A stretch of 64,000 nucleotides of DNA from Terebella lapidaria (lineage: Eukaryota > Annelida > Polychaeta > Terebellida > Terebellidae), in contig OX424555.1 in NCBI GenBank assembly GCA_949152475.1, positions 74,663,499 to 74,727,498 of the forward strand, given 5' to 3'. Positions 39,801 to 64,000 of this stretch are shown here, piece after piece; position 1 is the first letter of the stretch; the number at the start of each line of letters is the position of its first letter. Position numbers and translations under genes: made by a program. Below the pieces are notes generated by a model that searched no databases, had not been told where the DNA came from, and saw only the letters and a list, made by a program, of their open reading frames with translations.

Positions 39801-42800
39801 GTACACCAGGTTTTCTTGGTGGATGAGCAAGATTATAATACTACGATATTCATCGATTGCATAATATCAATTATGGCTGTCAGTTATGTCGAATATGCGA
39901 ATTAGTAGCTCAAACCTTTCATCGTGATTTGACACCTATAGCTTCCAGAAATTGAATGTGGTGTCAATTTATCCACATTAATTTTGTTCTCTGATCAGAT
40001 GTGTTGATTGTGGCCATGACTACTGAGCTACTGTGGGTAGATCTAACTGACCCCGACCACCGAGGCACCAGGATACCGGCCGTGGGACTCATCTCAGTGT
40101 CCGGTGTAGCGTATGACCCGAGTAGTGACATGGTGTACTGGTCAGACAACACGACACAGACAATCAACAGATGTCGTCGTGATGGCTCAGGTAAAAGATT
40201 CGTACCCGTTAACACGATCTGAATCAATGATTGTTCGACGGAATATTCGTCGGTGCTGATACAGTGGTGGCGTTATGATTGTAGATCAAGACGTTATATT
40301 CAGCACACCTGGGATGCCATTCGGCATAGCCCTTAGCGTGAACGAACATACCATTTTCTGGGTTGACAATGAGACAAACGGTATTGAATTCGCTGATCTG
40401 ATTGGAAACGAAACGTTCACGTTTGACGATGCGTATGATGTATTGTCAATAGATGTGGATGACGAGCAAGGGTGAGTGCCAATATTGGGAATGCATTACA
40501 GCCCCAAACATAATGATTTTGTAAATACCATTTGACTGTTAATACTATTATGTATTGTTAGGCACATACATCTGGTGTGTAGATTTGTATATTAAGATGT
40601 GAATAATGAATTAAGAATGAAAATGATGATTACAATTCACCGTTACGTTATTGGTCATGATATAAGCATGTGCCCTAATAGAAGAGCACCTCCCTGCCGA
40701 TGGTCTCAAAAGAATGTCGCGTTCGACTCCTTATAATTGGCGCGAAATAGCCTTATGATTTTTTCTGATTTTTTTTTAGGTTACCGCACCTTTGGTCCGA
40801 TAACCTATTGCCGTTGGTTGCGTCCGTCGGCCGTAGTCGTCGTCGTCCGTCGTCGTCGTCCGTCTACATTTTTTATCTTTATAAATTACAATCGAATCTT
40901 CCTGAAATTGTGCACAAAAAATGTCTAAAAATATTTCGAGAGGGAGGTATTTTTTAGTTTTTTTATTTTCGCAATTTTTTTCAAAATGGCGGCCCATTTT
41001 TGACGAGAAACGGCCAATTTTGGACTTTGACGTCCGTTTTCTCAAAATCTGTTGAGTAACTTTTTTTTTATTGATGCATAACACTCCTCATGTGTACCCC
41101 TGTTACGTGCATAAGTTTCGTTGCCCTTCAATCGGGCCATTTTGGGCCCAAACTCGACCCAAAGGGAATTTCCCATGATAAATTCTCCTATGCTTTATAA
41201 TGGGACACATTTTGCCTAAAATCTCACTTAATATTGAGATTAGAGATTAGGAATCAATTGTGGACATACAGAAAATGATATATGCTGAATATTATCTTGA
41301 CCTTGAGTTTGACATCTGACTTAATTTTCAAGGTCACAGGACAAAATCGCTAATATCTAGCTTATCATCAACTTAAGGTTGTTCGATACACCGAACGCGT
41401 CATCAATGTGGCCCGTCTATGGTTGACCAAACGTGTCATAAACAGCGAATGTAACGGCGGGGTGAAATAGGGATCGGCGGGGTATGAATGTTGCCGTGCA
41501 ATGGGAGTACTGGAAAATCCGGCGGTCTGTAATCAGTACGACGGAGTCTCGACTTGAACACACAAAGTACTGGAAGCATCACAGCATATGTCTGGTATCT
41601 TTCAGTGGGCCAGCCTCGGTTAAGAAGATAATACTACTAGAACATCCATTCGTTACATAGTTTTAATATGTATATGAGTAAACGTTTGCACAACAAAACT
41701 AGTAGACCTAACAATTTCCAAATCTTCTGATTAACATAATCAAACAGATCGTAAAATTATTCAAAACACTGTTAAATAAATTGACAACACTTCTGTGGAT
41801 CATGGCATAATTTTCAATACAACTCAAGCTTAGCGATAATAATATTTTGAAAGACTATTCATGGTATTGCAGATCTCGTAGGGCTAATAAGCATGAATGT
41901 ACTAGTATGGCATAACACATGAAATTTGTTGCTACTTGACTTGAGTGGACCAAGGACAAAAGATACAACGAATGCAAGAGCAAATTTGAGGGGTGAGGGG
42001 GGGGGGGGTTGCTGGCGCAAGTGGCGCTCATTACTTTGTATATGATATCTACGGTGGCTCATATTCGCCAGATGGAGGAATGCACTTTTTTCTTTACAGC
42101 GTTATAACGCTGTAATACAGCGTTATAACGCTGTAATACAGCGTAATAACGCTCTAATTTACAGCGTAATAACGCTCTAATTTACAGCATAATAACGCTC
42201 TAATTTACAGCGTTATTACGCTCTATTACAGCGTAATAACGCTCTAATTTACAGCGTAATAACGCTCTAATTTACAGCGTAATAACGCTCTAATTACAGC
42301 GTTATTACGCTCTAATTACAGCGTTATTACGCTGTATTAGAGCGTTATAACGCTGTAATTTACAGCATAATTACGCTCTAATTACAGCGTAATTACGCTG
42401 TAATTACAGCGTTATAACGCTCTAATACAGCGTAATAACGCTCTAATTAGAGTGTAATTACGCTGTAAATTAGAGCGTTATAACGCTCTAATTTACAGCG
42501 TTATAACGCTCTATTACAGCGTAATAACGCTGTAATTAGAGCGTAATTACGCTGTAAATTACAGCGTTATAACGCTCTAATTTACACTGCCAGAGACATC
42601 ATCGGACCTGCTAGTTCATCAGCTCAATCATTTGTAGGGAAATCTCAAAATTATTCTGATCTAGATATGTTTATTACAAATCACGATAATGGAAATATGC
42701 TAGGAAGGTGAACGGTTTAATTTAGAGCGTAATAACGCTCTAAAATAGAGCGTTATAACGCTCTAAATTAGAGCGTTATAACGCTGTATTACAGCGTTAT

Positions 42801-45800
42801 TACACTGTAATTAAAAATTTGCGGTCCTCTATGTGGCGAATATGAGCTTCCGTAGATATCTGTGTAAGACCAATAAAACAAGTGTGAGGGTTTCTTCCGT
42901 TTCTTACCACATCCTCCCATCCGCCGAATCCTGCATTTTGTGCCCCTGTGGAGTGTTTTCTTCACAATTCCAATCTCTTAGAACTTCAAAGTTCACCACA
43001 AAATATCCAGAGGTCGTCAAACACTCTTTTATAATAGTTTGTCCTATGCGCCCAAACACGCATATGCATTTCCAGTTCCACTAAGCAACATTCCATTGAC
43101 ATACATCAATTCCTCTATAGCCTGTCCATTATATAGCCTGAATATACCAAATGTTCACTCTTTAAGAGGAATACATCATAAGAAGAGCTCAGCTTCATTG
43201 GGCCGCAACATTTACAGCCCACAAGGCTCGATTTCGCGGGGCTCCGTTTTCGTTACAGTTGTCATTTTTGACACGTTTCGTCTACCATACCCGTTCCGCT
43301 ATGTAAGCCGAATGGGGCTAACTTTTTTGTTTCCGCAGCTTATCTGCCCAGAAATTTACACTATGTTAGGCGATTTTCTGCCAAAATTCATCGAGATGCA
43401 TGAAATAGACCTATAGACGAAATAATCTCCAAAATTCACCACGCACAGATCAGCGCTATCCTCTCAGTCAAATCCGTTATCAGCCATTTATATATAATAA
43501 GCTATATCCTCACGTTGTCCGTATGTAGTTATCGCAAAATCCTGTGCCAAATGTGGCGGTCATCTTGCTCAAGCTAATTGGGTGAAATTTATTCCTAAAG
43601 TTCTACTGACTTGTCAAATTTGATGGGGATATTTCAACTATTAGGCCTACTGAGTTGGCGACCGGAGAGAATCTCATCTGAGCCAATTGACCAGTCAACA
43701 TCTAGTGGTTTATTCTAGCAGCCATACCGTTCATGCTAATGATCACATCTACCATGCCAGCCTTTTATACATTTCTGAGTCAAGTCAGAACATACAATAT
43801 ATGAAATATATGATTTTTTTTTCAATTCATACTCACAAAAACTTGAATAATTTGACATAGTATGCACTCCAAATTCATGAAATTATTGATTTTTTGTTTC
43901 CATAAAATGACACTTTTCATGTTTTAACGCTTATATCGCGAAAAGTAACCTGGATAGGTATATTTTTTACATTATTTTTACAAACCCAAAATATCATTGA
44001 AGAAATATGTGTAAAAAAATTAGAAAAAAATACTGTATTACTGACCGACCAGTGATACTCAACGTTGTATGGATTATCAGAAGTTACTCTTTTTCTGTAA
44101 AATTTCAGTGCTGAAATATATACACATGTTCTTACTCTTGCCACGAAACATATCAAACTCAGTGCTAGCGAATTTTGTTTCATCAGTTTAATGAACCGTT
44201 GCATATACAACAGTTCTATACTGAAAAATCCTATAAATATATAGTTTTAGGCAAAAATATGCAGTTAGATTGCATGTCATGATGTAATGGATTGTGGCTA
44301 TTGCTGAGGTACTTTCAAGACTGATAGGAGGTCAACAAAATGCATCATAGCAAAAAATATCATACGGTGACCTACTATTTTTTTCTGCTTTTTGTAACCA
44401 TCACATATCTAGCTATCAAGAAATATAACTTTTTACTCAATAAAAACACCTTTCCGGGTGTTTCGAACAACCTTAACAGCTTAGGAATCAATTGTGGACA
44501 TACATGTATATGAAATGATATACGCGGAATATTCTGATGACCTTGAATTTGACCTTTGATCTCATTTTCAAGGTCAGAGCATAAAATGGCTAATATATCG
44601 CTCATTATTGACTTAGCAGCTTAGGAATCAATTGTGGACATATAGGAAATTATATAGTCCGAATATTGTGATGACCTTGGATTTGACCTTTGACCTCATT
44701 TTCAAGGTAAAAGAACAAAATGGCTAATATCTCGCTTCTTATCGACTTTACATCTTGAGAATCAATCGTGGACAGATAGGAAATGATATATGCTGAATAT
44801 TGTCATGACCTTGAATTTGACCTTTGACCTCATTTTCAAGGTCAGAGCACAGAATGGCTAATATCTCGTTTATTAACTTTACAGATTAGGAATCAATTGT
44901 GGACGTATAGGAAATGATATATTATGCTGAATACTATCGTGACCTTATTTGACCTTTGACCTCATTTTGAAGGTGTCACAGGACAATTTGGCTAACAGCT
45001 TGTTCTTTATCAAATTTACAACTCAGGGTCCTATTGTGGACATACAGCAAATGATATATGCTGAATATTCTGATGAACTCTAATTTGACTTTTTATTTAA
45101 TTTTCAAGGTCACAGTACATAATGACTAATACTAGTATCTCTCTTATTCACAGTGCCGAAACCGACTATGGTAACGCGCATTACCATAATCAAAAATGGC
45201 GGCAGGTATTTGTGGTTCGAATTTGATCGAGCTTAACAACTTCAATGAGAGGCTATTTTGAAGCATTCAGCAGTCTGTGATATAAAGTTGATTGTGCTGC
45301 ACATAATTAATAAGGCGAGTTACAGAAAAATGGGCCTTTTCTACGAGATATCGGCGACTGAAAATCGTGGCTGACTATGGTAACGCCCGAGTCAAAGGAT
45401 ACATTGACTATGGTAACGCATAGTGTCGACTATGGTAATGCATTCACTACTTCACTTCAAATAATATATATAACACAAGAATTGAACTATAATTTTAACG
45501 ATATTCGTATATTTACTGCAAGTAATAGGTCTGTTTCAGGTTACAGTGCAATTTTTTCTTTAAAACTGCAAATATATACTGTACTGGGTGTAGTACCGTG
45601 CTGAAACCCATGCTGACATCGTGAGATGTAGAACCACTGAGTCGCATGTGATTAGTCCCGGTCACATGCTGACACTTTGTTATTTGATGACAACAGGATC
45701 GATGGACTGAACACAGTTTGCGGACGATGATCCAATATATGAAAACACAGGCCGTCACTTTCCGACGTCACTGCCCTGAATACAGGAACAAGGACAAGGG

Positions 45801-48800: not shown

Positions 48801-51800
48801 GCGTATGGCACCATCGAGTACGGCCATCACCTCATATCGCATTTAATATAATAAGGCACGTAACGCCGGCGTCCCGGCTTCAATTCAAATGCCAATAAAA
48901 TCGTTTTGCTTGTTCCCCACACACAAACGATACCTACTTTTATTCCATATACATCACTCTTCCAAAATATGGTGTGCAAATCCACCTCTTTGCAGTATAG
49001 ATTAAAGAATCACACTTTGAAACATGATTTCAACTTTTTGACAACCTCTGCGATTATTTTCATTCAGTTTCAAGGCTGACTCGCCAGGCGTCTCTGTTCT
49101 TGAGTACAACTCATTTGCGGCTTGTGGTTTAGCCTGGGCTGCACCGTGACATTGAGTATTTCAAACACTGACATGAACATACAGATTTTGAGTTAAACTG
49201 TCTTGTGTGGCAAAACCCATGCTGCATAGTGATAAACTATAGTGAATAAACTAGGCCTATAGTGAATTTACGTTTATACATCAAGCTGGAACAGGAAAAT
49301 CATCTACTGTCAAGGAGCTCACTTCACAATTATGGGATCGTCGGAAATGAGTGCAAATATGCTAAAACCTTGCAGGCCTGTAATGTACATATGATCCCAA
49401 TCACTTCACAGGTCAAATGTTACTTTTAAATTTTGCAACATAACTGATTGTATTTGATATCATTATACAGAGGCCCTGCTAAACATTTTTCTCCTATGCA
49501 GATCAATCCACACATTATATTTTAAGGAAATTACATATTGATATGATCACTTCGAGATACTTGTCAAAATTGAGATAGTTGGTGAACGTTATTGACTTTC
49601 TCCAATTCAGGGTGATTTCAGATACGTATGATTTGAATGCACGTCCTGCTATATTCGTTAGGTTGGGAACTTTGAAAGCCACGTATCACCCGGGTTTATA
49701 ACTTGTTCATCGTCTACAAATTGGGACACAGTTATTCCCGGACGTGCGAACTGATGGACTTTACGGGCTAACTCTATGTTAAATTCTATACCTTAACTTT
49801 CCCAGTAAGTCATGAAAAATACCCCGTAAAAGCGAACTTTTGGACTATAACATAGTTAGGGGCCTAGGGGCTATGTACAGCTCCCCCCCCCCCCTAAAGC
49901 TCCCTCCCTAAACCCTCTGTGTTTGCCCGATGATTCAAATCCACAATCCTTATCAATCGTTTTGGACACTGGATTCGTATCATATTATACACTTTCCAGT
50001 GTGTTACAATGTTCTTATTGAGGTATATGGTTTATCTACAGTTCACAAAAACAATGATCACTGTAAAACGCGGCGCCACCTGGCGAGTCAGTCCTGAAAC
50101 TGCATCAAAATAATCGCAGAGGTTGTCTAAAAAGTTGACATTTATTTGATTTATTTTGGATAAACATGAGTACAAAATACATAATATACATACATGAATT
50201 GAAGATACAGACATAGATTGAACCCACACATACCCATGGATAGCACACGGAAGTACAAGTACTTGTTTCCAGCGTGGTCCATTTACGGGTCATGATGGTA
50301 GAGGCTAAATTGTTTTGACACAGTTTAATTTAACAATATTAAACATGTTAAATATGAACACATATTTGAACAACTGACATTTGAATAGGATGATTAGTAC
50401 ACAAACTCTGCCCTTTCATTCCCATGTACACCGTTGATAAGATGTTGTTTTACTTCAAGTTTGAATCTGTCATATTCTGTGATGATTTTGATACAATTTG
50501 GTAGTGCATTCCAGATGATAACCCCGTAATACCCGGAACCCTTCGCCATGTTATGTCTAACCGAAAGAACGTGAAAATTGAAAAGAAGACCCACGAGTGT
50601 AGATGTTGTGGTGTTGATGGATTTCAACAGAAAGATCTGGGAGATAGTCTGGGGCCTTGTTGTGGTGGACTTTGTGCATGTTGTTTAACATAAGCTGATG
50701 AGCTCTGCATTCTGTGTTAAGTAGCCCAAGGAGGTCCCTTTCTGACTGACCGACATGATCTCTAGGAGACACATTTAGTAGAAAATGTACAACCTTATTT
50801 TGTGCAACTTGTAATTTTCCTTTGAGGCTTTTGTTGAGACTAGGATACCATGCAGAGACTGCATAATCGAGATGTTTTTTTTTATTAATGCAGACATTAA
50901 CAATTTCCTACACTTGGTGTTGAGTACATTACTGTGTCTATACATAAATTTGAGTTTACCCATGGTTTTGTTTACAATGGATTCTACAGTACAATAACCG
51001 GATAGAGTTTGGTCCATATATAGGCCTAGGTATTTAACTTTGTTTGTGGCAATAATGGTGATGCCACTACAAGCAACTTCAAAAAATTTTGTTAGATGCT
51101 GTTTGCTTTTAGATGTGAACACAATGGTTTCCGTTTTGCCCATATGCATCGACAGATTGTCATTTGTTAACCAGTGAAAACAGTTTTGGATTTCTGTACT
51201 GAGTCGCTGAGAGAGGCTACACAAGTTGTTATCTTCAATTGAGAGTACCGTGTCGTCAGCATACATCAACAATTTACAAGTGACAGCTGAACAGATATCA
51301 TTGCAGAAGATTAGGTAGCACCAAGGTCCAAGGATACTGCCTTGTGGTACTCCACACTGTATGGTTTCTTCACTAGATGCATTTCCATTAACATGAGCAG
51401 TTTGTTTACGACCAGTTAAGTATGACATAAACCAGTTTGGATCAATACCAGCAAGTTTGATCTTTTCAACCAACATTTCATGATTGACACTGTCAAATGC
51501 TTTCTGTACGTCTAAGAGGGCCATGCCCACAAATTTACCCTGGGATATACCTTTCTTTATACAATCATGTAGATAAATGAGACAAGTATCTGTTGAGTAC
51601 GCTTTTCTGAACCCAGATTGGAATGCATAAACAGTATTACGAGTTTTACAATATTCCTCCACTTGATGATGAACAGCCTTTTCGAGTATTTTAGACAGAG
51701 AAGTGAGTATGCTAACTGGTCTGTAGTTACCAACATTTAGTTTACTATTCTTTTTATAAAGGTGAATAACCTTTGCACACTTTGTATTTTCAGGTACAAA

Positions 51801-53544: not shown

Positions 53545-54440
53545 GTGAGTATAGAAATAATACAGTGTGGGAATTTGTCCGACTCCGGGAAAACAAATGC
53601 ACCGTTCAAATGCATATAAAATAGCAAATAAATTATTGAAAATCACAGATTTAGAGTTCGGAATGGATCTAGGCCACGTAAGCAATCTCGACTCAGCAAA
53701 AAATATTAGCTTTAGGTAGCTATCGACTGATTGTATTTACTGCGATATATGACCGAAAATGTACCAGCACGCCAAACTGGGACATAGGTATTGCCACCGA
53801 TTGAAATTTAGAGGCGTAATCGACTGTTTAGGTAATTGAATAGTTAACTTGTCAAAGTTCTTTATTGTAATACCCCTCAGACATGTTCGGCTATGGCGAC
53901 GAGTTCAATAGTGTTTCTTACAGTTTCGCTGTAAGGTACATTTTTTTCCGAATTCTGGATAAAAATGAAATATGAAACTGACACACAAACAAAAAGAACC
54001 CCACCAGGTAAAGACCGCTAAAACACGCTTTTCTCTGAGAATTATGATAATAATTTCACCATATATTCCACAAATACCGGTATGGCTTGCATATTAGTTT
54101 TTTCCCAATATGTGGCAGGAAATGCTGAGTCACTCATTCCAGAACATCTGGTTTCACTTCATTCTGGCCATATGTGAAGTTTCATGAAACTCCTTCCGTA
54201 ATGAAGGCTAGTGTTGAATTTCCGATAAAATTCATACGAAAAGGCCACGGGTATGTTGCTCGTGATAAAAAACGAATGAAGAACCTGATATATCAACAAT
54301 TATTTGATGCAGACGCTTCGGGGAATACCTCATGCGGTTGTGAACATTTTGCTCACAATGCGATAGTATTGTGACGTTTGGTAATGACTTGTTTTCGGTG
54401 TGGCCCAAAAAACCTGGTTTCTCTGATCGTATAGACTTTA
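53545..54440. other. Intron 15 before the retrotransposon
   Basis: No exon seen. About 53869-53975 is a decayed unit of the 23438-24790 repeat family (CCCTCAGACATGTTCGGCTA, GGCGACGAGT). The retrotransposon 3' LTR begins at 54441. Confidence 0.5.
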
Positions 54441-54927
54441 TGTAACTCCCGCTCGTTGTGATTCGAGAGCCGTCACTAAATTGGTGTCCCCCAACGCTGG
54501 TGTATCATCACTCCGTAGCTCACCGGCTTCACTTAGGCAAGAAGCAACTCAGATGTAAATAAATTGAAGATTTATATACATCAAATCAACTTACAATTGT
54601 ATGGCTGGTCACCCACGTGACGTACAAATATGAAGTTCAGACATGGAGCACTGTATGATCACATTTCAAAAATAAATAGTGCACGAGGGCACAACTAAAA
54701 AGAGTTCTTAGCCGGCGGCGTCTCTCTGTCCCTTCCCGTTGAAGTTTCCCGTCCCGCTTAGTCGAATGGTTTCTCCAGGTAGTCGGTCTAAATCCCGGTT
54801 GACTCTAAGGCCCTGAAGAAGGAGTCGTCCGCACGGAGTTCGTCGAGTCCCTTGGCTGTGGCGGTGACGATCTCCCCACGGTCGATGTCGCTGTTGCAGT
54901 GCTCTCAGAGCGGCCGTCCGCTCTCCC

Positions 54928-54935
54928 TTATATAG
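54928..54935 (-). promoter_or_regulatory. TATA box of the LTR promoter
   Basis: CTATATAA on the - strand, followed by a GC-rich start region (GGGAGAGCGGACGGCC). It lies about 26 bp downstream of the nearest TTCCGCGAAC unit and would direct transcription toward the LTR R region. Confidence 0.65.
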
Positions 54936-54960
54936 CCAGGGTGGCTGCGCGCGCATCTTC

Positions 54961-55190
54961 GTCCGCGAACGTATCTTCCGCACTCTTCTCCACGTGGTGA
55001 AGACTGCGTCCGCGAACGGTTCTTCCGCGGAGGCTCCTCTTCCGCGAACGGTGCTTCCGCGACTGATGCTTCCGCTGATGATGCTTCCGCAATCGTGCTT
55101 CCGCGAACGGTTCTTCCGCGAACGATGCTTCCGCTGATGATGCTTCCGCAATCGTGCTTCCGCGAACGGTTCTTCCGCGAACGGTGTCTT
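54961..55190 (-). repeat. TTCCGCGAACG array in the LTR (U3)
   Basis: Seven exact TCCGCGAACG words plus variants (CTTCCGCTGATGATG, CTTCCGCAATCGTG) fill the region upstream of the LTR TATA box. A block of about 60 bp beginning GATGCTTCCGCTGATGATG is duplicated in tandem (about 55066-55185). Position in U3 suggests promoter or enhancer sites. Confidence 0.8.
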
Positions 55191-55265
55191 CGCAAGTGGA
55201 CTTTGTAGATCACGTGACCGTTCCTAACGAACGTTTCAGCGCGGCAGTTGCATGGTTTTGTTACA

Positions 55266-55283
55266 ACTCCACCCTTTCTGGAG
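55266..55283 (-). other. Polypurine tract
   Basis: The - strand reads AGAAAGGGTGGAGT directly before the TGTAACA start of the LTR. Such a purine run primes plus-strand synthesis in LTR retrotransposons. Confidence 0.7.
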
Positions 55284-55385
55284 ATCAACGTCCCCGTTGA
55301 TCCTTTCTCTCTCTTCTTTTCTCTTCTTCCTCCTTCTTCGTCTTTTCCTGCCTGTCTGATGTTTACAGGGCTCTCTCCCTCCACT

Positions 55386-56474
55386 TCACTGGCGATCCAC
55401 CTCGCTTTCGGACGTCTCCGCCAGCCTGTCTCGAGTGTCTGTATATGCTCGGAGCTGTTCCCGGAGCAGCTTGGTCTCTCGGACGTGGGCTCGCAGCTCC
55501 TTCCGGTGGCTCTTCTCTCGTTGAGAGGCCTCCCCTCGCAGCTGCAGCACCTCGGCCTCGAGCTGTCTCTGCTCCTCCTTGGCTTGGAGCCGAGCCTCCG
55601 CTTGGGTGAGGTGGCGTCGTCCCATGGCTATCGTGGATGCCAGGTCCTCCAGGGCCTTCTCTCCGGCAGTGACCGCTCTGCCCAGGCCCTCCACATACGG
55701 TCGCAGTTGGTCCTCCTCCTCCGGAACGGGCTTGAGGTACCAACTCAGGTCTAGGGGCTTGTAGGTAGGGGCCGAGTCTCTGGGAACGGGGGGTCCGTCG
55801 TCCTCGGGGGTGGGGGCCTCCGGGGATTCCGCCTCTCTCCGCTCCTGCTGAGACTCCGGTTCCTCTTCGCTATTCGGGGGGTCGTCCTCGGGGTCTGGGG
55901 CGTCCTCTGACCTGGGGGCGTCCTCCCGGGGGCTTGACGGCGTGGAGCTGGTCGTCCCGCTGGCCGCAAAGCTGACAGTCTTCAGCTCAGGGGCAGACAC
56001 AGTAGTCGGACCATCTCGGGGGTCGGACACGGGCGTGTCGGTCGTCGTCCTCCTCCGTCCTGGCTTGAGGGTGTTGCCGCTGGCATGCGACGTCTCATGC
56101 CGGTCTCTGTCAGCTCGGCGGGCGAATCGCTGGCTGCACATCTTGCAGAGGTGCCGCCCCTCCTTCTGCGTGTGTTTGGTCGCCACGTGTCGGCTAAAGT
56201 TGGATGCCGTCACGTGGATCCGGCAGGGGCTGCACCAGCGTCGCCCTCTCTCGGTGGACAACTTCCGGGCAGGGGACCGTCGACCTCCTCGGGGCTCCTC
56301 ACGACGCTCCCGGCTCCTCGAGCGCTCCCGCTTCCGGTCAGGCTTGGTAGGTGGGTCGCTCATCTTGTCGACTTCAAGGGGCAGAAAGTCAGCCAAGTCG
56401 AAATCTGGAACGTCCCCGAAATCTTCGTCTGCAAATGCGGGTATCTCAATGATCTGCAGAGTTGGTGTGTTCAT
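55386..56474 (-). CDS. Third ORF: C2H2 zinc-finger/coiled-coil protein of the gypsy element
   Basis: 362 codons, 239 nt after the pol stop. Layout: acidic/hydrophobic N-terminus 1-36 (EDFGDVPDFDLADFLPLEV), Arg/Ser-rich basic stretch about 45-72, two C2H2 zinc fingers (C81, C84, H96, H101 and C110, C113, H126, H130), a Pro/Glu/Asp-rich acidic region about 150-235, and a heptad-like coiled coil about 245-355 rich in Glu, Gln, Arg and Leu. There is no signal peptide or transmembrane segment, so it is not a typical envelope protein. It looks like a nuclear DNA-binding factor that dimerises. A TATA box lies 34 bp upstream of the ATG. The function is unknown; regulation of the element, integration targeting or host-gene capture are all possible. 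Confidence 0.75.
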   Translation of the reverse strand: MNTPTLQIIEIPAFADEDFGDVPDFDLADFLPLEVDKMSDPPTKPDRKRERSRSRERREEPRGGRRSPARKLSTERGRRWCSPCRIHVTASNFSRHVATKHTQKEGRHLCKMCSQRFARRADRDRHETSHASGNTLKPGRRRTTTDTPVSDPRDGPTTVSAPELKTVSFAASGTTSSTPSSPREDAPRSEDAPDPEDDPPNSEEEPESQQERREAESPEAPTPEDDGPPVPRDSAPTYKPLDLSWYLKPVPEEEDQLRPYVEGLGRAVTAGEKALEDLASTIAMGRRHLTQAEARLQAKEEQRQLEAEVLQLRGEASQREKSHRKELRAHVRETKLLREQLRAYTDTRDRLAETSESEVDRQ

Positions 56475-56507
56475 GGTTGAAGTGATGACGGAATCGTAGG
56501 CCGGCCT

Positions 56508-56517
56508 GCTTATATAG
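56508..56517 (-). promoter_or_regulatory. Internal TATA box before the third ORF
   Basis: CTATATAAGC on the - strand, 34 bp before the ATG at 56474. A start about 30 bp downstream would give an mRNA with an almost absent 5' UTR. The TTCCGCGAACG array begins about 70 bp further upstream, as in the LTR. Confidence 0.6.
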
Positions 56518-56584
56518 AAAAGGCGCGGACCAGGGATCTGGGGGAAAAAGCATTGTCGTGGAACGAAATAACGTTTTTCGCTTG

Positions 56585-56705
56585 CTTCCGCGAACGGTTC
56601 TTCCGCGAACGCTGCTTCCGCGAACGTGCTTCCGCGAACGGTACTTCCGCGAACGCTGCTTCCGCGAACGCTGCTTCCGCGAACGGTTCTTCCGCGAACG
56701 CTCCC
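56585..56705 (-). repeat. TTCCGCGAACG array between pol and the third ORF
   Basis: Eight copies of CTTCCGCGAACG at 14-15 bp period (given here on the + strand), starting right after the pol stop. The open frame across it on the - strand (repeats of AFAEAAFAEVPFAE) looks like a by-product of the period. It probably belongs to an internal promoter. Confidence 0.8.
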
Positions 56706-56713
56706 GTCATCGT

Positions 56714-59700
56714 TTACATCGTTTGGACTGCATTCCCGCTGTTTTCCACTCGTCCCTCGTCATCACTGGGGGTCCGGACTGGGGTCACATCGTCCGGATT
56801 GGGTATCCAGGCGTCGGTTTCAGGGGTGAACCAGCACCTTTTTATATTGTCAATGTGGACATCTTTAATCTTGCCACCGGGTCGATCTTGTATGGACACC
56901 ATCCATCCGAGATGAGACTTCAGAACGAGATAAGGTCCCGTCCACCCTAGTCCTAGTTTTGGTCTAGCCTTTGGAGGGTACCAATACATCACCCAGGTGC
57001 CCACCGGAAAATGTCGAGCGGCTGATTTTATGTCATGATGGCGCTTTTGTCGCACCGTAGCCGTCTTCAGGCACTCTCGGGCAGTCTCGTGAGCTTGTAT
57101 GGTGGCTTCCTTCACCCATTCGACGTATTCGGACGCACACTCGGGGACTGGTCCTCCCAAATCGTCCGGTTTCGTCCGGTACCTCAGGTCCAATGGGGTG
57201 GTTGCCTCCCGTCCCATCATCATTCGAAATGGTGTACACCCAGTGCTTTCGTGTACTGATGTTCTATAAGTCGCCATCACGTAGGGCAGATGGTCGTCCC
57301 AGTCGTCATGGTTCTCGTCCACGACCACGGCCAGAAGGTTCAGCAGGGTCCGGTTGAATCGCTCGACCATCCCGTCTGATTTGGCGTGATAAGGGGTCGT
57401 CCGAGTCTTCTCCCCTCCTAGGATCTTGATCATCTCAAGGAAAAGCTTACTCTCGAACTCTCGTCCCTGGTCGGTGTGTATCTTGGCTGGCATTCCCAGG
57501 CGGCACACGAACTCAGTCACAAAGACGTCCGCCACCGTCTGAGCCTCATGGTTGGGTAGAGCGTAGGCCTCAGTCCACTTGGTGAAATAATCACCCACGA
57601 CCAGTATATACCGGTTCCCAGAATTGGTGATCGTTCCAGGCTCCAAAATGTCCATGGCCACCCTTTCTAGCCGATCGCCTACCGGTAGATTTCCCATGGG
57701 GTGGTACTTGGGCCCCGGTCGCGGCTTTCTCCCACTACACTTCAGGCACTCCCGGCACCAACGCTCCACGTCCTTCGTCATACCCGGCCAGTACATTCTC
57801 GCTTTTAGTCGGTGGACTGTTTTGGTGATTCCCTGGTGGCTCATCAGCTTGCCGGTGTGGACCTCCTTCATGACGGCGCGTCTCAGGACCTGTGGAACGA
57901 CCAGTTGATGGATTGGTGCGTTCTGGCAAGCCGCTTGGTACCGCCGGTACAGAAGCCCATCACGTAGCTCCAGCTGGTCCCACTGTTGCCACAGAGTCTT
58001 CATTTGCTGACTTTTTGTTCTGACTTCGGGCCATGCAGGTCTCTCAGTGAAAATATTCTTCCACCCGAGGATGCCTCCAACTTCAGGGTCGGCTCGTTGA
58101 AGGGTCACTAGGTCCTCCTGGGAATAACCATTCAGGACCTGGGCCTCCGGGGCTCCCTCCATCGGATTCCGGCGTCCTCCCGTAGCCATAGCCCGCGTGA
58201 CAGCTAGCATTTGTTTGTCTGGATCTCGGAGCACAGGGTTGGGGCATGGGTCCAGGAAGGGCTCCTCTCGGCAGCGCATCCACACGTCGGCCGTCGCGCC
58301 GATCGCTGCTCCGGCCACAACCTCCGGTCCCAAACCATGCAGTGCGAGGAGCATCATCAGGAGAAACCAAACCCAGGCAGAGGGGCGGAGCTGATGCAGG
58401 GTTCTGCAGACGCTCCTGGCTCCTTCCTCCGTCTGTGGGGGGCTCCGGTCAGGCAGGCATTCCTCGGTCGGCTGGGTAGTCGTCCTCGGGTCCTCCTGGC
58501 AGCGCACCTCCCAGATCTGGAATATCCCGACTCCATCTCCGCAATAGTAGTCCTCCGTCCAGGGCTCCACAGGGACCTCCCGCAAGATGTTAACTTGAGG
58601 TCCTCCGGGGCTCCATCCTTCTCCGCTGATCGGTGGAAGCAGATCCTCGTCAGAGAGGTCCTCCAGGGGTAGGGGACACTCCTCCTGAGTCGGACAGGCC
58701 TCCTCTTCTCCTTCGGGTCTTGTGGTGTGGCGAGGGGCGGGACAATCCGGTCTCCGGCACTGTCGGCATCTGGACATCCCGTCTGCATTCCCGTGTTGTA
58801 CTCCCGGTCGGACCTCACACCTGAAGGCGTAGCTGGCGATGCGAGCTGCCCATCTAGCGATCATTCCTTCCGCATCCCGAAAGTTCAGTAGCCACTTGAG
58901 AGAGGCGTGGTCGGTTCGTAGTAAGAACGCTCTCCCCCACAAGAAATGTCTGAAATGGTGTATCATACTGACGACGGCCAGGAGCTCCCGCTTGGTGGTG
59001 CAGTAATTCCGCTGGGTGTCCCTCAGGGTTCTGGAAGCATAGGCGATCACCCGCTCTCGTCCGTCCTGCACTTGGGATAAGACGCCTCCCACTCCGTAGC
59101 CGCTAGCATCAGTATCTAAAATAAATTCTTGGTCCATGTCAGGGTACACCAGCAGGGGGTGCTCGGTCAGGGGTTGACGCAGCGCCTCGAACGCCTGCTG
59201 ATGAGCCTCGCTCCAATGGTAGTTGACTTCCTTCTTTAACAGGTGGTTGAGGGGTCCCGCTCGGGTGGCAAAGTCAGGGATGAATCTGCGGTAGTACCCC
59301 ACGAACCCAAGGAAGCTCCTTAGTTCTGTCAAGGTGGTCGGAGGAACCATTTTTGTTACAGCTTCGACCTTGGCAGGGTCGCACTGGATGCCTCGGTCGG
59401 ACACGACATGGCCCAGGAAGTTGACCTGTTGTCGAAACAGCTCACACTTGGCGGGTTTCAGCTTCAGCCCGGCAGCCTGCAGTCTCCGGAACACGTCCTC
59501 GAGGTTGTCCACGGCTTCTTGGAAAGTCTTTCCAAGACAGACGACATCGTCCAAATAAATTAGACAACGCTTCCATTGGAGTCCCCTCAGTGCCAGCTCC
59601 ATTAGACGTTCAAAAGTAGCCGGGGCCGTCGCCAATCCAAACGGCATCACTTTAAATTGATAGAGTCCACTACGGGTAGTGAACGCCGTCTTCTCCTTGT

Positions 59701-61786
59701 CCCTGTCGTCCATCTCGACCTGCCAGTAACCACTAGCCAAGTCTAGCGTCGAAAAATATCGTCCTCCTGACAAGGTATCAAAACTCTCGTCGACTCGAGG
59801 CAGGGGGTACGCATCCTTCCGGGTGACATCATTTAGACGGCGGTAGTCGACGCAAAATCTCAGTGCACCATCCTTCTTTTTCACTAGCACGATGGGAGAC
59901 GACCATGGACTGTCACTTGGCTCCACAACGTCAGCTTTCAACATCTTGTCGACCTCGTCCTCGATCAGCTCTTGTTGGTAGTACGGGGCTCTCCTCAGAG
60001 GCTGCTTGATCGGGGGGTGATCTCCCGTGTCGATGACGTGTTTCGCCAGGGACGTCCGGCCCAACCTCCCATCTGGTCCCATAAAGACCTGCTGGTGGCG
60101 TCGAAGGAGATCGCTGACGACCTCCACCTCCTTTTCCGTCAAGTTCGGATGCATTCCCTCCAGGAGCGGTTCTAAATGCTCCGGGCACTCTGGTGTCTTC
60201 GTCGACGATTCTGCGTGCATGGCGTGCACTCTGGTTTCGGGCTGCTCAGGCGTCCGGTTCCGCCACTTGGTGGAGTTTGGTGTAAGGGGCTCATGCTCCC
60301 TCCCGCTCTCCTCCCGGTACCACTGTTCCCTTTTAGGTTCATTCTGGGTTGTTTTCCCTCCATCGGGACGAAATCCCAGGTCGATCACGGCCTCTATTCC
60401 GTGAAGCTCGGCTAGGATGGTCCCCATCAGCACAGTGCAAGCTCCAGCGCCGGCGTTCAGAAGTACCACCGGTACCAGGCGTCCTCGGGGTCGTACCAGG
60501 GCTCGTCCCACTACGAGGGGGTCGTCCTCCAACGGCTCTCTTGCGGACTGCACGAGGCCGGCCTTCGGAACTCCTCCCTCACTTCCTGTCAGCTTGAGGT
60601 CCACCATCATCTCTGAAAAGGGTGGCAAGACGACCGTCTCCTCCGTCACCAGTGTGTAGACGGCGCCCTCGTGGCCCGAGCTCATCACTACGGTAGTGTC
60701 GCCCACCTGCCACTCGCCCTTACGCAGATCCAGCTGTCCCCCAATCTGTTGAAGTACATCAAGCCCCAACACTCCCGGGATCCCTAGTTTGGCTACCAGT
60801 ACGTCTGCCGACACGAGTCGTGTGCCCAGTAGAAGTTGAACTGTCATCTCTCCTTGAACCTGTAAGTAGTCTCCGGTTGCTGCCCGTAACCTTATTCTCG
60901 TCTGCCTTATCATTGCTTTATGTTCGTCATCCATTTGGTCGAAGAGACACTCGTCCAGAACGGTGGAAGAGGCACCCGTGTCCACCAACATACGAGTCGC
61001 CTTCCCCATAACGTGGCACGCCGCATACCACGCCAATGTGCCTCGGGCACCGGCTGACAGCGACACCACCTGGCCATTTCTGTCAATCTTAAGAGAGCTG
61101 CCACTCTCCTCAGGGACGCCGCCCTGGATAAGTACTGAGTCGTCCACCCACAGTGATGCACCACCCTGGTCCTCTCTGTCAGTCTTAAGGGAATCACTCC
61201 CCTCGGAACCGCCGCTCCGGATAAGTAATGAGTCGTCCACCAGCAATAGCTGCTGCGCTGGCCCCTTGGTCATTCCGCTCCACCGGCCCTCCGTCTCCTC
61301 TTTCACGGCCGCTTGTGGTTCAGTTGCATAGGGGGGTCCCTGCTGTTTCGCAGCCTCCAGCCTCAAGGTTGTAACCTGTTGGTTCTCCTTGCTGCTAGCA
61401 GAAACCTCGTTGATGTCTCCGTGGGTCCCCAGACGCTCCACGGCTCCATCGGTCTGCATTTCGTCGACGTCTCCGCGGGTCATTAGACGCTCCACGGCTC
61501 CATCGGTCTGCATTTCCTTGACGTCTCCGCGGGGCATTAGACGCTCCACGGCTCCATCGGTTTGCTGTACATTGGCACTCCCGTCTGTGTTGACAGGCTT
61601 GCCCTCCAAATAGTCGAGAATTCGATCCTCGAGCTCCTCCTGCGCCCATCCAGTTACTTCGGATGCACACCGGAAAAACCTATTAAAAATCTGTGAAACT
61701 AAAAATTCCCCCCTGGCAATGTGTTCTTCACGTCTTCGTCGAGCTTCTCGCCTGTGAAGCCGTGCACACACCTGCCAATGGCCCAT
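56714..61786 (-). CDS. pol: Gypsy pol polyprotein (protease, RT, RNase H, integrase)
   Basis: 1690 codons, intact. Residues 1-250 are repeat-rich. Aspartic protease follows with LVDTGAS (D269). Reverse transcriptase lies about 590-790 with VDYRRLN, LDLASGYWQV, MPFGLATAPATF and catalytic YLDD (744-747). RNase H is about 885-1010 (LDTDASGYGVGG, KRELLAVV, RTDHASLKWL). A hydrophobic stretch lies at 1137-1165. Integrase carries an HHCC finger (H1310, H1317, C1344, C1347) and catalytic D1379 or D1399, D1439 and E1475 with the expected 35-residue D-E spacing. The C-terminal GPY/F-type module is about 1613-1655 (WTGPYLVLKSHLGW). No chromodomain was recognised. The ATG is in the -1 frame relative to gag, whose stop lies 23 nt upstream. 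Confidence 0.95.
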   Translation of the reverse strand: MGHWQVCARLHRREARRRREEHIARGEFLVSQIFNRFFRCASEVTGWAQEELEDRILDYLEGKPVNTDGSANVQQTDGAVERLMPRGDVKEMQTDGAVERLMTRGDVDEMQTDGAVERLGTHGDINEVSASSKENQQVTTLRLEAAKQQGPPYATEPQAAVKEETEGRWSGMTKGPAQQLLLVDDSLLIRSGGSEGSDSLKTDREDQGGASLWVDDSVLIQGGVPEESGSSLKIDRNGQVVSLSAGARGTLAWYAACHVMGKATRMLVDTGASSTVLDECLFDQMDDEHKAMIRQTRIRLRAATGDYLQVQGEMTVQLLLGTRLVSADVLVAKLGIPGVLGLDVLQQIGGQLDLRKGEWQVGDTTVVMSSGHEGAVYTLVTEETVVLPPFSEMMVDLKLTGSEGGVPKAGLVQSAREPLEDDPLVVGRALVRPRGRLVPVVLLNAGAGACTVLMGTILAELHGIEAVIDLGFRPDGGKTTQNEPKREQWYREESGREHEPLTPNSTKWRNRTPEQPETRVHAMHAESSTKTPECPEHLEPLLEGMHPNLTEKEVEVVSDLLRRHQQVFMGPDGRLGRTSLAKHVIDTGDHPPIKQPLRRAPYYQQELIEDEVDKMLKADVVEPSDSPWSSPIVLVKKKDGALRFCVDYRRLNDVTRKDAYPLPRVDESFDTLSGGRYFSTLDLASGYWQVEMDDRDKEKTAFTTRSGLYQFKVMPFGLATAPATFERLMELALRGLQWKRCLIYLDDVVCLGKTFQEAVDNLEDVFRRLQAAGLKLKPAKCELFRQQVNFLGHVVSDRGIQCDPAKVEAVTKMVPPTTLTELRSFLGFVGYYRRFIPDFATRAGPLNHLLKKEVNYHWSEAHQQAFEALRQPLTEHPLLVYPDMDQEFILDTDASGYGVGGVLSQVQDGRERVIAYASRTLRDTQRNYCTTKRELLAVVSMIHHFRHFLWGRAFLLRTDHASLKWLLNFRDAEGMIARWAARIASYAFRCEVRPGVQHGNADGMSRCRQCRRPDCPAPRHTTRPEGEEEACPTQEECPLPLEDLSDEDLLPPISGEGWSPGGPQVNILREVPVEPWTEDYYCGDGVGIFQIWEVRCQEDPRTTTQPTEECLPDRSPPQTEEGARSVCRTLHQLRPSAWVWFLLMMLLALHGLGPEVVAGAAIGATADVWMRCREEPFLDPCPNPVLRDPDKQMLAVTRAMATGGRRNPMEGAPEAQVLNGYSQEDLVTLQRADPEVGGILGWKNIFTERPAWPEVRTKSQQMKTLWQQWDQLELRDGLLYRRYQAACQNAPIHQLVVPQVLRRAVMKEVHTGKLMSHQGITKTVHRLKARMYWPGMTKDVERWCRECLKCSGRKPRPGPKYHPMGNLPVGDRLERVAMDILEPGTITNSGNRYILVVGDYFTKWTEAYALPNHEAQTVADVFVTEFVCRLGMPAKIHTDQGREFESKLFLEMIKILGGEKTRTTPYHAKSDGMVERFNRTLLNLLAVVVDENHDDWDDHLPYVMATYRTSVHESTGCTPFRMMMGREATTPLDLRYRTKPDDLGGPVPECASEYVEWVKEATIQAHETARECLKTATVRQKRHHDIKSAARHFPVGTWVMYWYPPKARPKLGLGWTGPYLVLKSHLGWMVSIQDRPGGKIKDVHIDNIKRCWFTPETDAWIPNPDDVTPVRTPSDDEGRVENSGNAVQTM

Positions 61787-61809
61787 ACGGTTGGGGGCTG
61801 GTATGAGCC

Positions 61810-61849
61810 CTACTGGTTTTCCGACTCCTCGTCTGTCAAACTGTTCCGC
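61810..61849 (-). other. gag-pol overlap in the -1 frame
   Basis: The pol frame stays open upstream of its ATG to a TGA at 61850-61852, overlapping the end of gag by about 40 nt. In the overlap, six bases before the gag stop, the - strand reads GGAAAAC (61822-61816), close to a -1 slippery heptamer. Pol may be made by frameshifting or by reinitiation at its ATG. Confidence 0.45.
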
Positions 61850-64000
61850 TCACCAATCTCCTCGATTAGTCGACTCAAGCGCTCCTCCTTGGTCCGAGGT
61901 GGCGGCCGATCTGGACACTGGTACTTCCGATGACCCGGCTTCCCACAGTACCAACAGTCATCTGGTCCCGGCCTAGCGCTTGGTCCCTTGTTCTCAGCAG
62001 TGGCGGCCCTCGGCTTGATGGATAGCACCTGCTCACACAGCTCGATTAGTCGATCCAGCTTCCTGTCTTGGCTCTCAAAGAGCCCCTTGAAGTAGGGAAG
62101 TCTGGGTAGACCCGCTACGTTCGGCTGGTTGCTCTGCTGCCCACTGGTGGTAATCTCGCCTCCCTGCTGGTTCTTCAACAGCTGTAGGACCCGTCCTAGA
62201 GCTGGCTCGGAGTCCTCCGACTCTATGGACATCACCGGCTTCCCAGGCTTGGGTTTGACACATTCGTACTGGGTCACGAACGCTATGGCCTCCTCCATGG
62301 TCTTCATCTTCCTCATGAGCGCCATCACCTTCATGTCCCCATCTGGATGGCCCTTCCAGAAGTGGTCTAAGGCGATAGCCTCCTGAGCTGCGGAGTTCAG
62401 ATCCGGATAACCACGGCCGGCCAGTCGCTGCAACTCATAGCCGTACTGCTGGGGTGTCTCTGCCTTCCTGCGGGTTCTCTGTCCCAAGGTCGCCTTGTAG
62501 GACTCCTCCTGACAGTCAGGGTCGAATCGTAGGGTCAGCTTGTCGGTCAGAACGTCGATGTCCCTCCGGTCTGCAGGACTCAGGCTGGTCAGCATTCGTC
62601 GCGCCTCTCCTGTCAAGCTCCCGGCTAAGTAGACGCCCTGTTCCCGCTTGCTCCATCCGTTGACCTCTGCGATGACGTCAAAGTGGGCCCGGTACACCGG
62701 CCACTCTATGGAAGTCCCATCGAACTTGTCAGGGGTCAGCATCTTCCGGTTCCTTCTGCCGTTCTGATTCCAGGCTGTGCTGTCCTCGGACGACGAGTCC
62801 TCCTGCCTCCGTCTCGGCCTAGGGCTTCGTCGGTGCAGCGGCGGTCCCCGCCTCGGTGGTCTCCTCCCCCGTCCTGGGTAACCATGGCTGCTCTCGGTCC
62901 CTCCATCAGATGAAGGCCCCTCATCGCCCGATGATGAGAAAGGGTGCTGTCTCCGGCCTCCCTGGGTGACTGAAATAGAAGCTGGATTTCTCCAGGAGGC
63001 TGGCTGTCTCGGTTGTCGACTGGGTGAAGACCTCCCTCTTCCGCGAACGCTGTCTTCCGCGAACCCTCCGCGAACACTGTCTTCCGCGAACCTTCCGCGA
63101 ACGGACTCTTCCGCCAACAGCTCCCGAAGAAGTTCTTCCGCGAACAGGCCTCTTCCGCGAACGCCGTCTTCCGCGAGTCTTCCGCGAACGGGCTCGTCCG
63201 CCAAGATGTCTCGGAGACGTCCCTCCACAAAAGATGCACGTCCGCGAACGCCATCTTCCGCGAGTCTTCCGCGAACCGGCTCATCCGCGAATGGTCTTCC
63301 CCGTCTATTCTGAAAAACTGGAAAGGAAGATTGGTCGCCTGGATCACTCCTTTCGTCGAGCCGCCGTCTGGGTGAAGACTCCTCTCTTCCGCGAACACTC
63401 TCTTCCGCGAGTCGTCCTCGTCCGCGAACGTGGTCGTCCGCGAAGGGCCCTCCCCGGTCACAAGCGTCCTCGTCACCAAAGACTCCCCCTCGCCCACGAG
63501 CCCGTTCATCCACGAAGGATCCCCGGCTGCAAGCGTCCCTGTCGCCGAAGAATGCCTCTCGTCCGCGAATGTTCTCTTCCGCGAAAAGTCCTCTCCCTCT
63601 CGAGCTGCTCTCTTGGGTCGGAGCCCAAGTAACCCGTCCTCCAGTCACTCCCGTTTGTCGACTCGTCACACCCGACCGCTGCCCTGTTGCACCAGACTGC
63701 TGCTCTGTTGCACCAGACTGCTGCTGGGACTGGTCCCAAAGCCGTCTCAATGCTGCATTCTCTGGAGGTGCCACACTTGGACTCTGCTCCGGTAGCTGTA
63801 GCCGATCCCTCCTCGCCCAGATTTCGCCGTCCTCCCCGTCCAGATTGACGTACTCCGGTCCCAGCACTCGTCGGAACTCGGGGCCCCTCCTAACGCTCTC
63901 AAGGTAGGTTGACCTCTCCCTGTCTCGATCGTGCTGCCACCCAGAGTCGTGTCTGAAAAGAAAACGGTTGTCGGGTGTCTGGCTCCGGGGTCTCTGTTGA
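61810..64000 (-). CDS. gag: Gypsy gag (N-terminus beyond window)
   Basis: The frame is open from the window edge to TAG at 61810-61812. The codon at 63867 is GTG inside an open frame that continues to 64000, so the true start is off the window. From that GTG: small QQSGAT/RSGVT repeats at 47-75; a long region (about 92-278) built from (F/L)AE(D/E)SVRGR units; a basic Ser/Pro/Arg region; a capsid-like helical domain about 370-560 (LTPDKFDGTSIEWPVYRAHF, YELQRLA); and one CCHC zinc knuckle CWYCGKPGHRKYQC (638-651). Gag packages the element RNA. Confidence 0.92.
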   Translation of the reverse strand, partial: QQRPRSQTPDNRFLFRHDSGWQHDRDRERSTYLESVRRGPEFRRVLGPEYVNLDGEDGEIWARRDRLQLPEQSPSVAPPENAALRRLWDQSQQQSGATEQQSGATGQRSGVTSRQTGVTGGRVTWAPTQESSSRGRGLFAEENIRGREAFFGDRDACSRGSFVDERARGRGGVFGDEDACDRGGPFADDHVRGRGRLAEESVRGREESSPRRRLDERSDPGDQSSFPVFQNRRGRPFADEPVRGRLAEDGVRGRASFVEGRLRDILADEPVRGRLAEDGVRGRGLFAEELLRELLAEESVRGRFAEDSVRGGFAEDSVRGRGRSSPSRQPRQPASWRNPASISVTQGGRRQHPFSSSGDEGPSSDGGTESSHGYPGRGRRPPRRGPPLHRRSPRPRRRQEDSSSEDSTAWNQNGRRNRKMLTPDKFDGTSIEWPVYRAHFDVIAEVNGWSKREQGVYLAGSLTGEARRMLTSLSPADRRDIDVLTDKLTLRFDPDCQEESYKATLGQRTRRKAETPQQYGYELQRLAGRGYPDLNSAAQEAIALDHFWKGHPDGDMKVMALMRKMKTMEEAIAFVTQYECVKPKPGKPVMSIESEDSEPALGRVLQLLKNQQGGEITTSGQQSNQPNVAGLPRLPYFKGLFESQDRKLDRLIELCEQVLSIKPRAATAENKGPSARPGPDDCWYCGKPGHRKYQCPDRPPPRTKEERLSRLIEEIGERNSLTDEESENQ
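63035..63590 (-). repeat. TTCCGCGAAC words inside the gag coding region
   Basis: More than a dozen copies of TTCCGCGAAC or close variants (given on the + strand) lie in frame in gag, where the complement encodes FAEDSVRG-type units. The same word forms the arrays in the LTR and before the third ORF. Inserts of ordinary sequence separate groups of copies. Confidence 0.8.

Follow-up and report, generated by a model that had tools for sequence, protein, structure and literature searches.

A candidate self-acting zinc-finger regulator in the env position of a Ty3/gypsy retrotransposon of the annelid Terebella lapidaria

Ordinary Ty3/gypsy elements carry gag and pol, sometimes together with env, and those without env are usually regarded as gag-pol machines whose transcription is left to host factors. 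In foamy viruses, one DNA-binding protein, Tas (Bel1), has sites upstream of both the long terminal repeat (LTR) promoter and an internal promoter (PMC8670036). VANC, encoded by the VANDAL transposons of the plant Arabidopsis, is a transposon precedent for a self-encoded factor acting on self-encoded repeats (PMC5735166), and CERV, encoded by the Ty3/gypsy-type element Cer1 of C. elegans, shows that a gypsy-type element can have an additional regulatory protein, in that case acting on RNA (PMC10309623). Here, we discuss an LTR retrotransposon in a stretch of 64,000 nucleotides from the annelid Terebella lapidaria (GenBank assembly GCA_949152475.1, contig OX424555.1, forward-strand positions 74,663,499 to 74,727,498; the window in the following). 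Its third open reading frame (ORF), ORF3 (55386..56474, minus strand), is predicted to encode a Tas-like, sequence-specific DNA-binding transactivator with an internal promoter, a reading that we hold with moderate confidence and in which both binding and activation are predicted.

As judged by domain order and reverse transcriptase (RT) matches, the element is a Ty3/gypsy LTR retrotransposon. It is about 10.96 kb long from LTR to LTR and lies, ORF3 included, on the minus strand. The 3′ LTR (54370..55265, minus; sense TGTAAC...GTCACA) and the 5′ LTR (window-equivalent 64432-65328, outside the window) align over 897 bases, all of them identical (the outermost probably by chance), and the flanks give a 4-bp target-site duplication, GTAT; the element is recently active. 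An LTR end at 54441 was ruled out since other copies extend beyond this position. Pol (56714..61786, minus) is a single ORF of 1690 amino acids (aa) whose Pfam matches run from protease (PR) through RT and RNase H (RH) to integrase (INT). Gag (61810..63999, minus) is open at the window end, and its frame extends into the adjoining stretch up to an ATG outside the window. Pol is intact; both gag and pol had been called intact in an earlier reading of the letters alone (the original prediction). Where errantivirus-type elements carry env after pol, the third ORF here encodes a C2H2 protein, and the Pfam scan of ORF3 found no envelope family. The earlier statement that ORF3 shows no envelope features stands to this extent, predictors of transmembrane segments and signal peptides not having been applied.

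The LTRs, gag, and the PR-RT-RH-INT order are those of an ordinary Ty3/gypsy element, whereas the env position is occupied by a C2H2 gene for which a separate TATA promoter is predicted. As described for Tas (PMC8670036), the regulatory gene lies near the 3′ end and has an internal promoter of its own, both the regulator and this promoter being predicted here. Foamy viruses, however, are Retroviridae with env, inside which their internal promoter is situated (PMC8670036), whereas the present element is of Metaviridae type, with no env found, C2H2 fingers, and long tandem arrays. All Pfam matches of ORF3 stay below their cut-offs, and Tas is likened to it by description; because pol is of gypsy type and env is missing, the element can only work like a Tas circuit, not be one. 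ORF3 resembles VANC in being a fast-evolving, transposon-encoded protein with targets, predicted in our case, in tandem repeats of its own element. In contrast, VANDAL is a DNA transposon, VANC is a DUF1985/DUF287 protein, and its effect is loss of DNA methylation (PMC5735166); neither domain is among the ORF3 Pfam matches at E ≤ 1. CERV likewise is an extra, nuclear regulatory protein of a gypsy-type element, with a possible dimerizing helix and a possible zinc finger. Unlike the role proposed for ORF3, it acts in the export of genomic RNA; it is made from a spliced mRNA and has a possible C4-type finger, and the passages of PMC10309623 covered here describe neither arrays nor an internal promoter. 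Searches of an open-access library, at the level of titles and the first lines of abstracts, gave no paper on a gypsy element that has an internal promoter for a C2H2 transactivator, which is weak evidence of absence, as subscription papers and repeat-library reports lie outside this library.

ORF3 encodes a C2H2 zinc-finger protein of 362 aa, supported by ORF calling, AlphaFold2, its copies, and their shared variants. The ORF of the original prediction is therefore real, and its strand (minus) is added here. The layout comprises an acidic start (residues 1-36), a basic RS stretch (residues ~44-79; 56238..56345, minus, read from the translation), two fingers (81-101 and 110-130), an acidic, proline-rich middle, and a C-terminal helix. 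The finger region (residues 81-130; 56085..56234, minus) carries the recognition helices TASNFSR and RRADRDR. Translation confirmed the fingers, the acidic N-terminus, and the RS stretch that had been noticed earlier, and the latter is a possible nuclear localization signal. AlphaFold2, run without an alignment, gave a mean predicted local distance difference test score (pLDDT) of 64 and modeled both fingers as beta-beta-alpha (pLDDT 71-78 over residues 81-120 and 53 over 121-130), in line with the folding check suggested for this region. The C-terminus was modeled as one helix (residues 254-361; 55392..55715, minus), with pLDDT 86-97 over residues 261-360. The coiled coil of the original prediction is presumed from this single predicted helix and its composition. 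Finger 2 fits the canonical C-x2-C-x12-H-x3-5-H pattern, while the zinc-finger matches in Pfam are all under the cut-off (top, zf-H2C2_2, E 0.011). By motif, predicted fold, and reading residues, ORF3 is modeled as a C2H2 DNA-binding protein. Residues 1-40 (56355..56474, minus) are a candidate activation domain: tiles beginning at residues 1-10 pass the acidic activation-domain rule given in PMC10550315 (−13 ≤ charge ≤ −8 and W+F+L ≥ 6), while falling one unit short of an older, stricter rule (charge −10, W+F+Y+L 8). Foldseek in PDB gave 26 matches, none at E ≤ 0.001, PHROGs just three weak matches of coiled-coil type, and tblastn in phages no match.

In C2H2 proteins, finger 2 reads the 5′ triplet. 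With the first His that binds zinc as the reference for numbering, the ORF3 contacts at positions −1/3/6 are T/N/R in finger 1 and R/D/R in finger 2. Tested modules include GAT-TSGNLVR, GAA-QSSNLVR, and GCG-RSDDLVR (PMC9705829); in the module table of that source, the helix rows were read opposite to the target rows, upon which the rows agree on CAA and GAT. The ORF3 helices then correspond to the GAT (T/N/R) and GCG (R/D/R) modules, and the predicted site is 5′-GCG-GA(T/N)-3′, with finger 2 on GCG and finger 1 on GAN.

Five of the six bases of this site agree with the core of repeat arrays that the element itself carries. In the U3 region of the LTR, repeat alignment and pentamer counts define an array of degenerate 15-bp units with a constant sense core, GCGGAAG (55005..55191, minus). 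Alignment at 15 bp, with the motif not fixed, showed the seven GCGGAAG columns to be constant in 92-100% of the units; among the other eight columns, one reaches 100% and seven 50-92%. A second 15-bp array with the same sense core, of eight units, lies between pol and ORF3 (56583..56702, minus; repeat analysis), and these units are almost uniform and add little information on the core. GCGGA is the top pentamer of U3, with 15 occurrences against 12 for the next, and 300 shuffles gave a mean of 1.27 and a maximum of 5. In the internal promoter it occurs 8 times (another pentamer 9 times; shuffle mean 0.66, maximum 4), and in pol it is not enriched (9 versus 7.68 expected by shuffling). A motif search placed a TATA box, sense CTATATAAG, in the LTR (54927..54935, minus) and the same box 43 bp 5′ of the ORF3 ATG (56509..56517, minus), so that an array and a TATA box precede the ORF3 gene. 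Exact TATATAAG occurs only twice in positions 54001-64000 of the window, each time downstream of an array.

Because the predicted ORF3 site is the repeat that precedes both TATA boxes, the element probably activates its own promoters. In this model, the fingers would read GCGGA in the arrays (finger 2 GCG, finger 1 GAN), the C-terminal helix would oligomerize ORF3 over adjacent sites, and the acidic N-terminus would draw in the host transcription machinery. The LTR TATA promoter would give genomic RNA, gag, and pol, and the internal one ORF3. With arrays just upstream of both TATA boxes, ORF3 would switch on the LTR as well as its own gene, forming a positive loop. Since the two promoters have TATA form and array in common, and the fingers match the array core, a self-activating regulator is the simplest account; binding, oligomerization, activation, and use of the internal promoter are what we infer from it. 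Control of the element's own promoters had been raised in the original prediction as one of three possible roles, next to integration targeting and the countering of host silencing, and as a prediction it now has specific evidence from finger code, arrays, and TATA boxes.

The copies in this genome (assembly of 761.6 Mb, 438 contigs) show that ORF3 is kept by purifying selection. A search with ORF3 gave 113 scored matches from 1713 first-look candidates, 108 with the top score and five slightly lower, and none of the 113 has stops; being the best matches, however, they are unfit for a selection test. A test on the 30 best-scoring copies, in which all ORF3 differences were synonymous, was dropped since these copies had been chosen for an identical protein. 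Instead, 40 copies were chosen by a 30-mer from the internal TATA box, which has 446 genome matches at ≤3 mismatches (reversed control, 0), of which the 100 places listed each have 0 mismatches; all 40 match the 30-mer exactly and lie on contig C1. Of the 40, 35 retain ORF3 at full length, with 365 aa in 21 and 362 aa in 14. The longer form, to which the database protein P0002 corresponds, is due to an in-frame 9-bp insertion present in 25 of 39 compared copies. Residues 1-36 are identical in 40/40 copies, the finger-1 helix is kept in 40/40, and the finger-2 helix in 37/40, at least two of the remaining three being truncated frames.

Variants were counted in 39 of the 40 copies, one being left out for a deletion. 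Those present in more than one copy comprise 20 synonymous, five nonsynonymous, and no nonsense changes, compared with 35, 37, and three, respectively, for single-copy variants. Random change in ORF3 is expected to be synonymous in 25-30% (29.5% in the test); the shared variants depart from this with binomial p 2.6e-7 and from the single-copy variants with Fisher p 0.005, values to be taken as guides because variants common to several copies are in part dependent on one another. The five replacements among them (T144A, T144M, T157S, Q302R, and E356K) spare the fingers and the acidic start, and two fall in the long helix. At the pol end, shared variants number 5 to 4 (32/40 copies, eight left out), too few for comparison. 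The frame is hence neither absent from nor unconserved in the related copies, and the idea of a conserved, selected, transcription-factor-like third gene in a gypsy element is borne out.

Relatives of the element were sought through its RT. Six proteins are 66-74% identical to it and others ≤62%, among 120 of 7896 matches listed. In one of the six, P0044 (RT 71% identical), pol is followed by a repeat in which AE recurs every 7 residues, 11 times in succession; next come a pair of C2H2 fingers and a tail that is charged and helix-like. Its finger contacts, D/N/R and R/D/R, give GCG-GA(C) by the code, and GCG GAA is one possible coding of its AE repeat, P0044 being known here from the protein alone. 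Among 122 proteins scanned for the pattern, ORF3, P0002, and P0044 were the only ones with finger pairs of this kind. ORF3 and P0044 are weakly similar (BLAST E 2e-7, single pair, composition correction off), and a protein search with the post-pol part of P0044 scored 7982 candidates, of which not one reached E ≤ 10. Three other close relatives (P0045, P0047, and P0051) have short peptide repeats near the pol C-terminus; these may mark arrays similar to the one that follows pol in the window element. An RT-profile search of genome contigs detected 10 loci whose best segments are 38-61% identical, the value of 61% applying to 98 residues. Viral contigs searched with ORF3, an RT piece, and the RT profile contained no confirmed relative.

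The finger part of P0044 detected six loci in the T. lapidaria genome (E 1.8e-4 to 7.3e-4). Four of them (L042, L043, L045, and L046) belong to another gypsy family, whose RT (L050) is 53% identical to that of the window element, and the other two (L044 and L047) are finger pairs with stops. Integrase lies upstream at the three places examined (L042, L048, and L050), and two C2H2 ORFs follow pol (L052, L053, L042, and L045). A TATAAAA box is found 86 bp 5′ of the presumed ORF2 ATG and another 268-269 bp 5′ of the ORF1 ATG. L052 has arrays with GCGGT or GCGGA cores at 1566-1629 and 2357-2498. The latter is upstream of the ORF2 TATA box, while the former sits between the ORF1 TATA box and the ATG, so that the layout differs from that of the window element. 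In ORF1, the second finger is R/D/R and the first differs among copies; the ORF2 contacts, S/T/R and R/G/K, fit GCGG loosely. For ORF1, pN/pS is 0.12-0.34 (three pairs), and for the finger part of ORF2 0.23-0.66 (six pairs, few changes). The ORF2 C-terminus gives 0.16-0.26 in three of six pairs and 0.94-0.99 in the three with L042, which is taken as an indel shifting the comparison. Activation-domain tiles number 0 (L052), 1 (L053), and 7 (L045) in ORF1, and none were found in ORF2 of L042 and L052. In the search with ORF1 (152 residues), 150 matches were scored from 649 candidates; they are 89-100% identical, and 145/150 are free of stops. The family thus has at least 150 scored matches to ORF1. 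At L048 (C1:79163173-79166605, minus), a 1144-aa frame runs antisense to the neighboring second-family pol; it has RT (39%) and integrase (33%) similarity to the window element and is read as a further gypsy element, perhaps nested there.

Several findings weigh against ORF3 as an activator that reads the arrays. Finger 1 has 11 residues, not 12, from the second Cys to the first His. The sixth base misfits, the code giving GAT in the window and GAC in P0044 where the arrays have GAA, and GCGGAT occurs neither in U3 nor in the internal promoter. The array repeats were known before the site was derived, though the helices fix the code. A chance match is possible for a short motif in a GC-rich 15-bp repeat, and p is ~0.006 at best, because GCGGAAG holds 6 of 1024 pentamers (three per strand). 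Variation of the internal array among copies is not depleted in the core, with four variants at 48 core positions and five at 70 others, too few to decide. Of 1652 tiles in pol, 20 also pass the activation-domain rule (in gag, 0 of 691), which hence alone is not specific, and no tile passes in the post-pol part of P0044. Moreover, phmmer of ORF3 against P0044 gave a domain E of 1.6e-5 (single target) with a negative whole-sequence score. Finally, GCGGA repeats also fill gag (63039..63582, minus, with more at window-equivalent 64092-64306), where they are coding.

The gag repeats bear on the alternative that ORF3 binds the arrays as an anti-silencing factor that lifts host repression, as VANC does, rather than as an activator. 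VANC targets are often tandem repeats in noncoding regions and vary by repeat gain and loss (PMC5735166). Here also, the arrays vary by whole units, the internal one being 224, 239, or 254 bp long and holding GCGGAA 7-9 times in 65/70 copies examined, and they occur in gag, away from promoters, with 22 GCGGA versus 5.33 expected by shuffling. In the gag array (63030-63600), GCG GAA encodes eight of eight Ala-Glu pairs, while elsewhere Glu is GAA in 47/214 and Ala is GCG in 36/178; this usage may reflect constraint at the DNA level or merely recent duplication. However, the arrays directly precede both TATA boxes and the N-terminus of ORF3 is of the activator type, and we regard anti-silencing as unlikely, though a serious contender. 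Somewhat less probable still is a role on RNA, in which the GCGGAAG repeats of the transcript would be bound for export, splicing, or packaging, with CERV or Rev as the model. The RS stretch fits such a role, Cer1 encodes a protein of this kind (PMC10309623), and GCGGA is strand-biased (70 sense versus 26 antisense in the window) and present in gag, the intergenic region, and the 3′ LTR of the RNA. Yet the bias stems in part from a purine-rich sense strand, the U3 array would be absent from the 5′ part of the RNA, the canonical DNA-reading residues of the fingers match the array core, and the internal TATA box beside an array would be left unexplained.

That ORF3 is a captured host zinc-finger protein serving integration targeting or another host interaction, with a coincidental array match, appears very improbable: C2H2 pairs are common host modules and the top solved-structure match by sequence is tramtrack (E 0.028, not significant), but the fingers fit the arrays of the window element and, to the extent that a protein can tell, also those of P0044. 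A chance or decaying frame without function can practically be set aside, for although the only homologue at E ≤ 0.001 is P0002, 99% identical (7233 scored candidates from 5.8 billion proteins), purifying selection and intact frames in the copies, unless the 40 are unrepresentative, together with the frame-preserving 9-bp indel and the similar fingers of P0044, argue against it.

Elsewhere in the window, frames at 50775-52228 (minus) resemble a non-LTR reverse transcriptase, as judged by eye. Dense 22-23-bp tandem and inverted repeats with the core AGCGTTATAACGCT occupy 42094-42813, and two 21-bp arrays at 20075-20603 are near reverse complements of each other. A 134-bp tandem array with TTGACCTTTGACCT-type motifs lies at 44472-45131 and a 146-bp tandem array at 23619-24359.

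Returning to the proposed self-activating regulator, the second family shows a related pattern, with a TATA box before each ORF and GCGG[T/A] arrays near both. We tentatively propose, at slightly short of an even chance, an animal gypsy group of complex retroelements to which this family and P0044 would belong as further members. Such elements would carry a fast-evolving two-finger transactivator behind an internal promoter, with finger specificity co-evolving with arrays near the promoters, and would thus possess an autonomous switch of two promoters that parallels foamy viruses and VANC. A segment of ~2.5 kb holds the predicted protein, its predicted site, and the two predicted promoters, which makes the model directly testable. 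If true, a self-encoded activator of the element's own LTR could help to explain the hundreds of sites with very similar copies in this genome and would extend the complex-retrovirus plan to Metaviridae.
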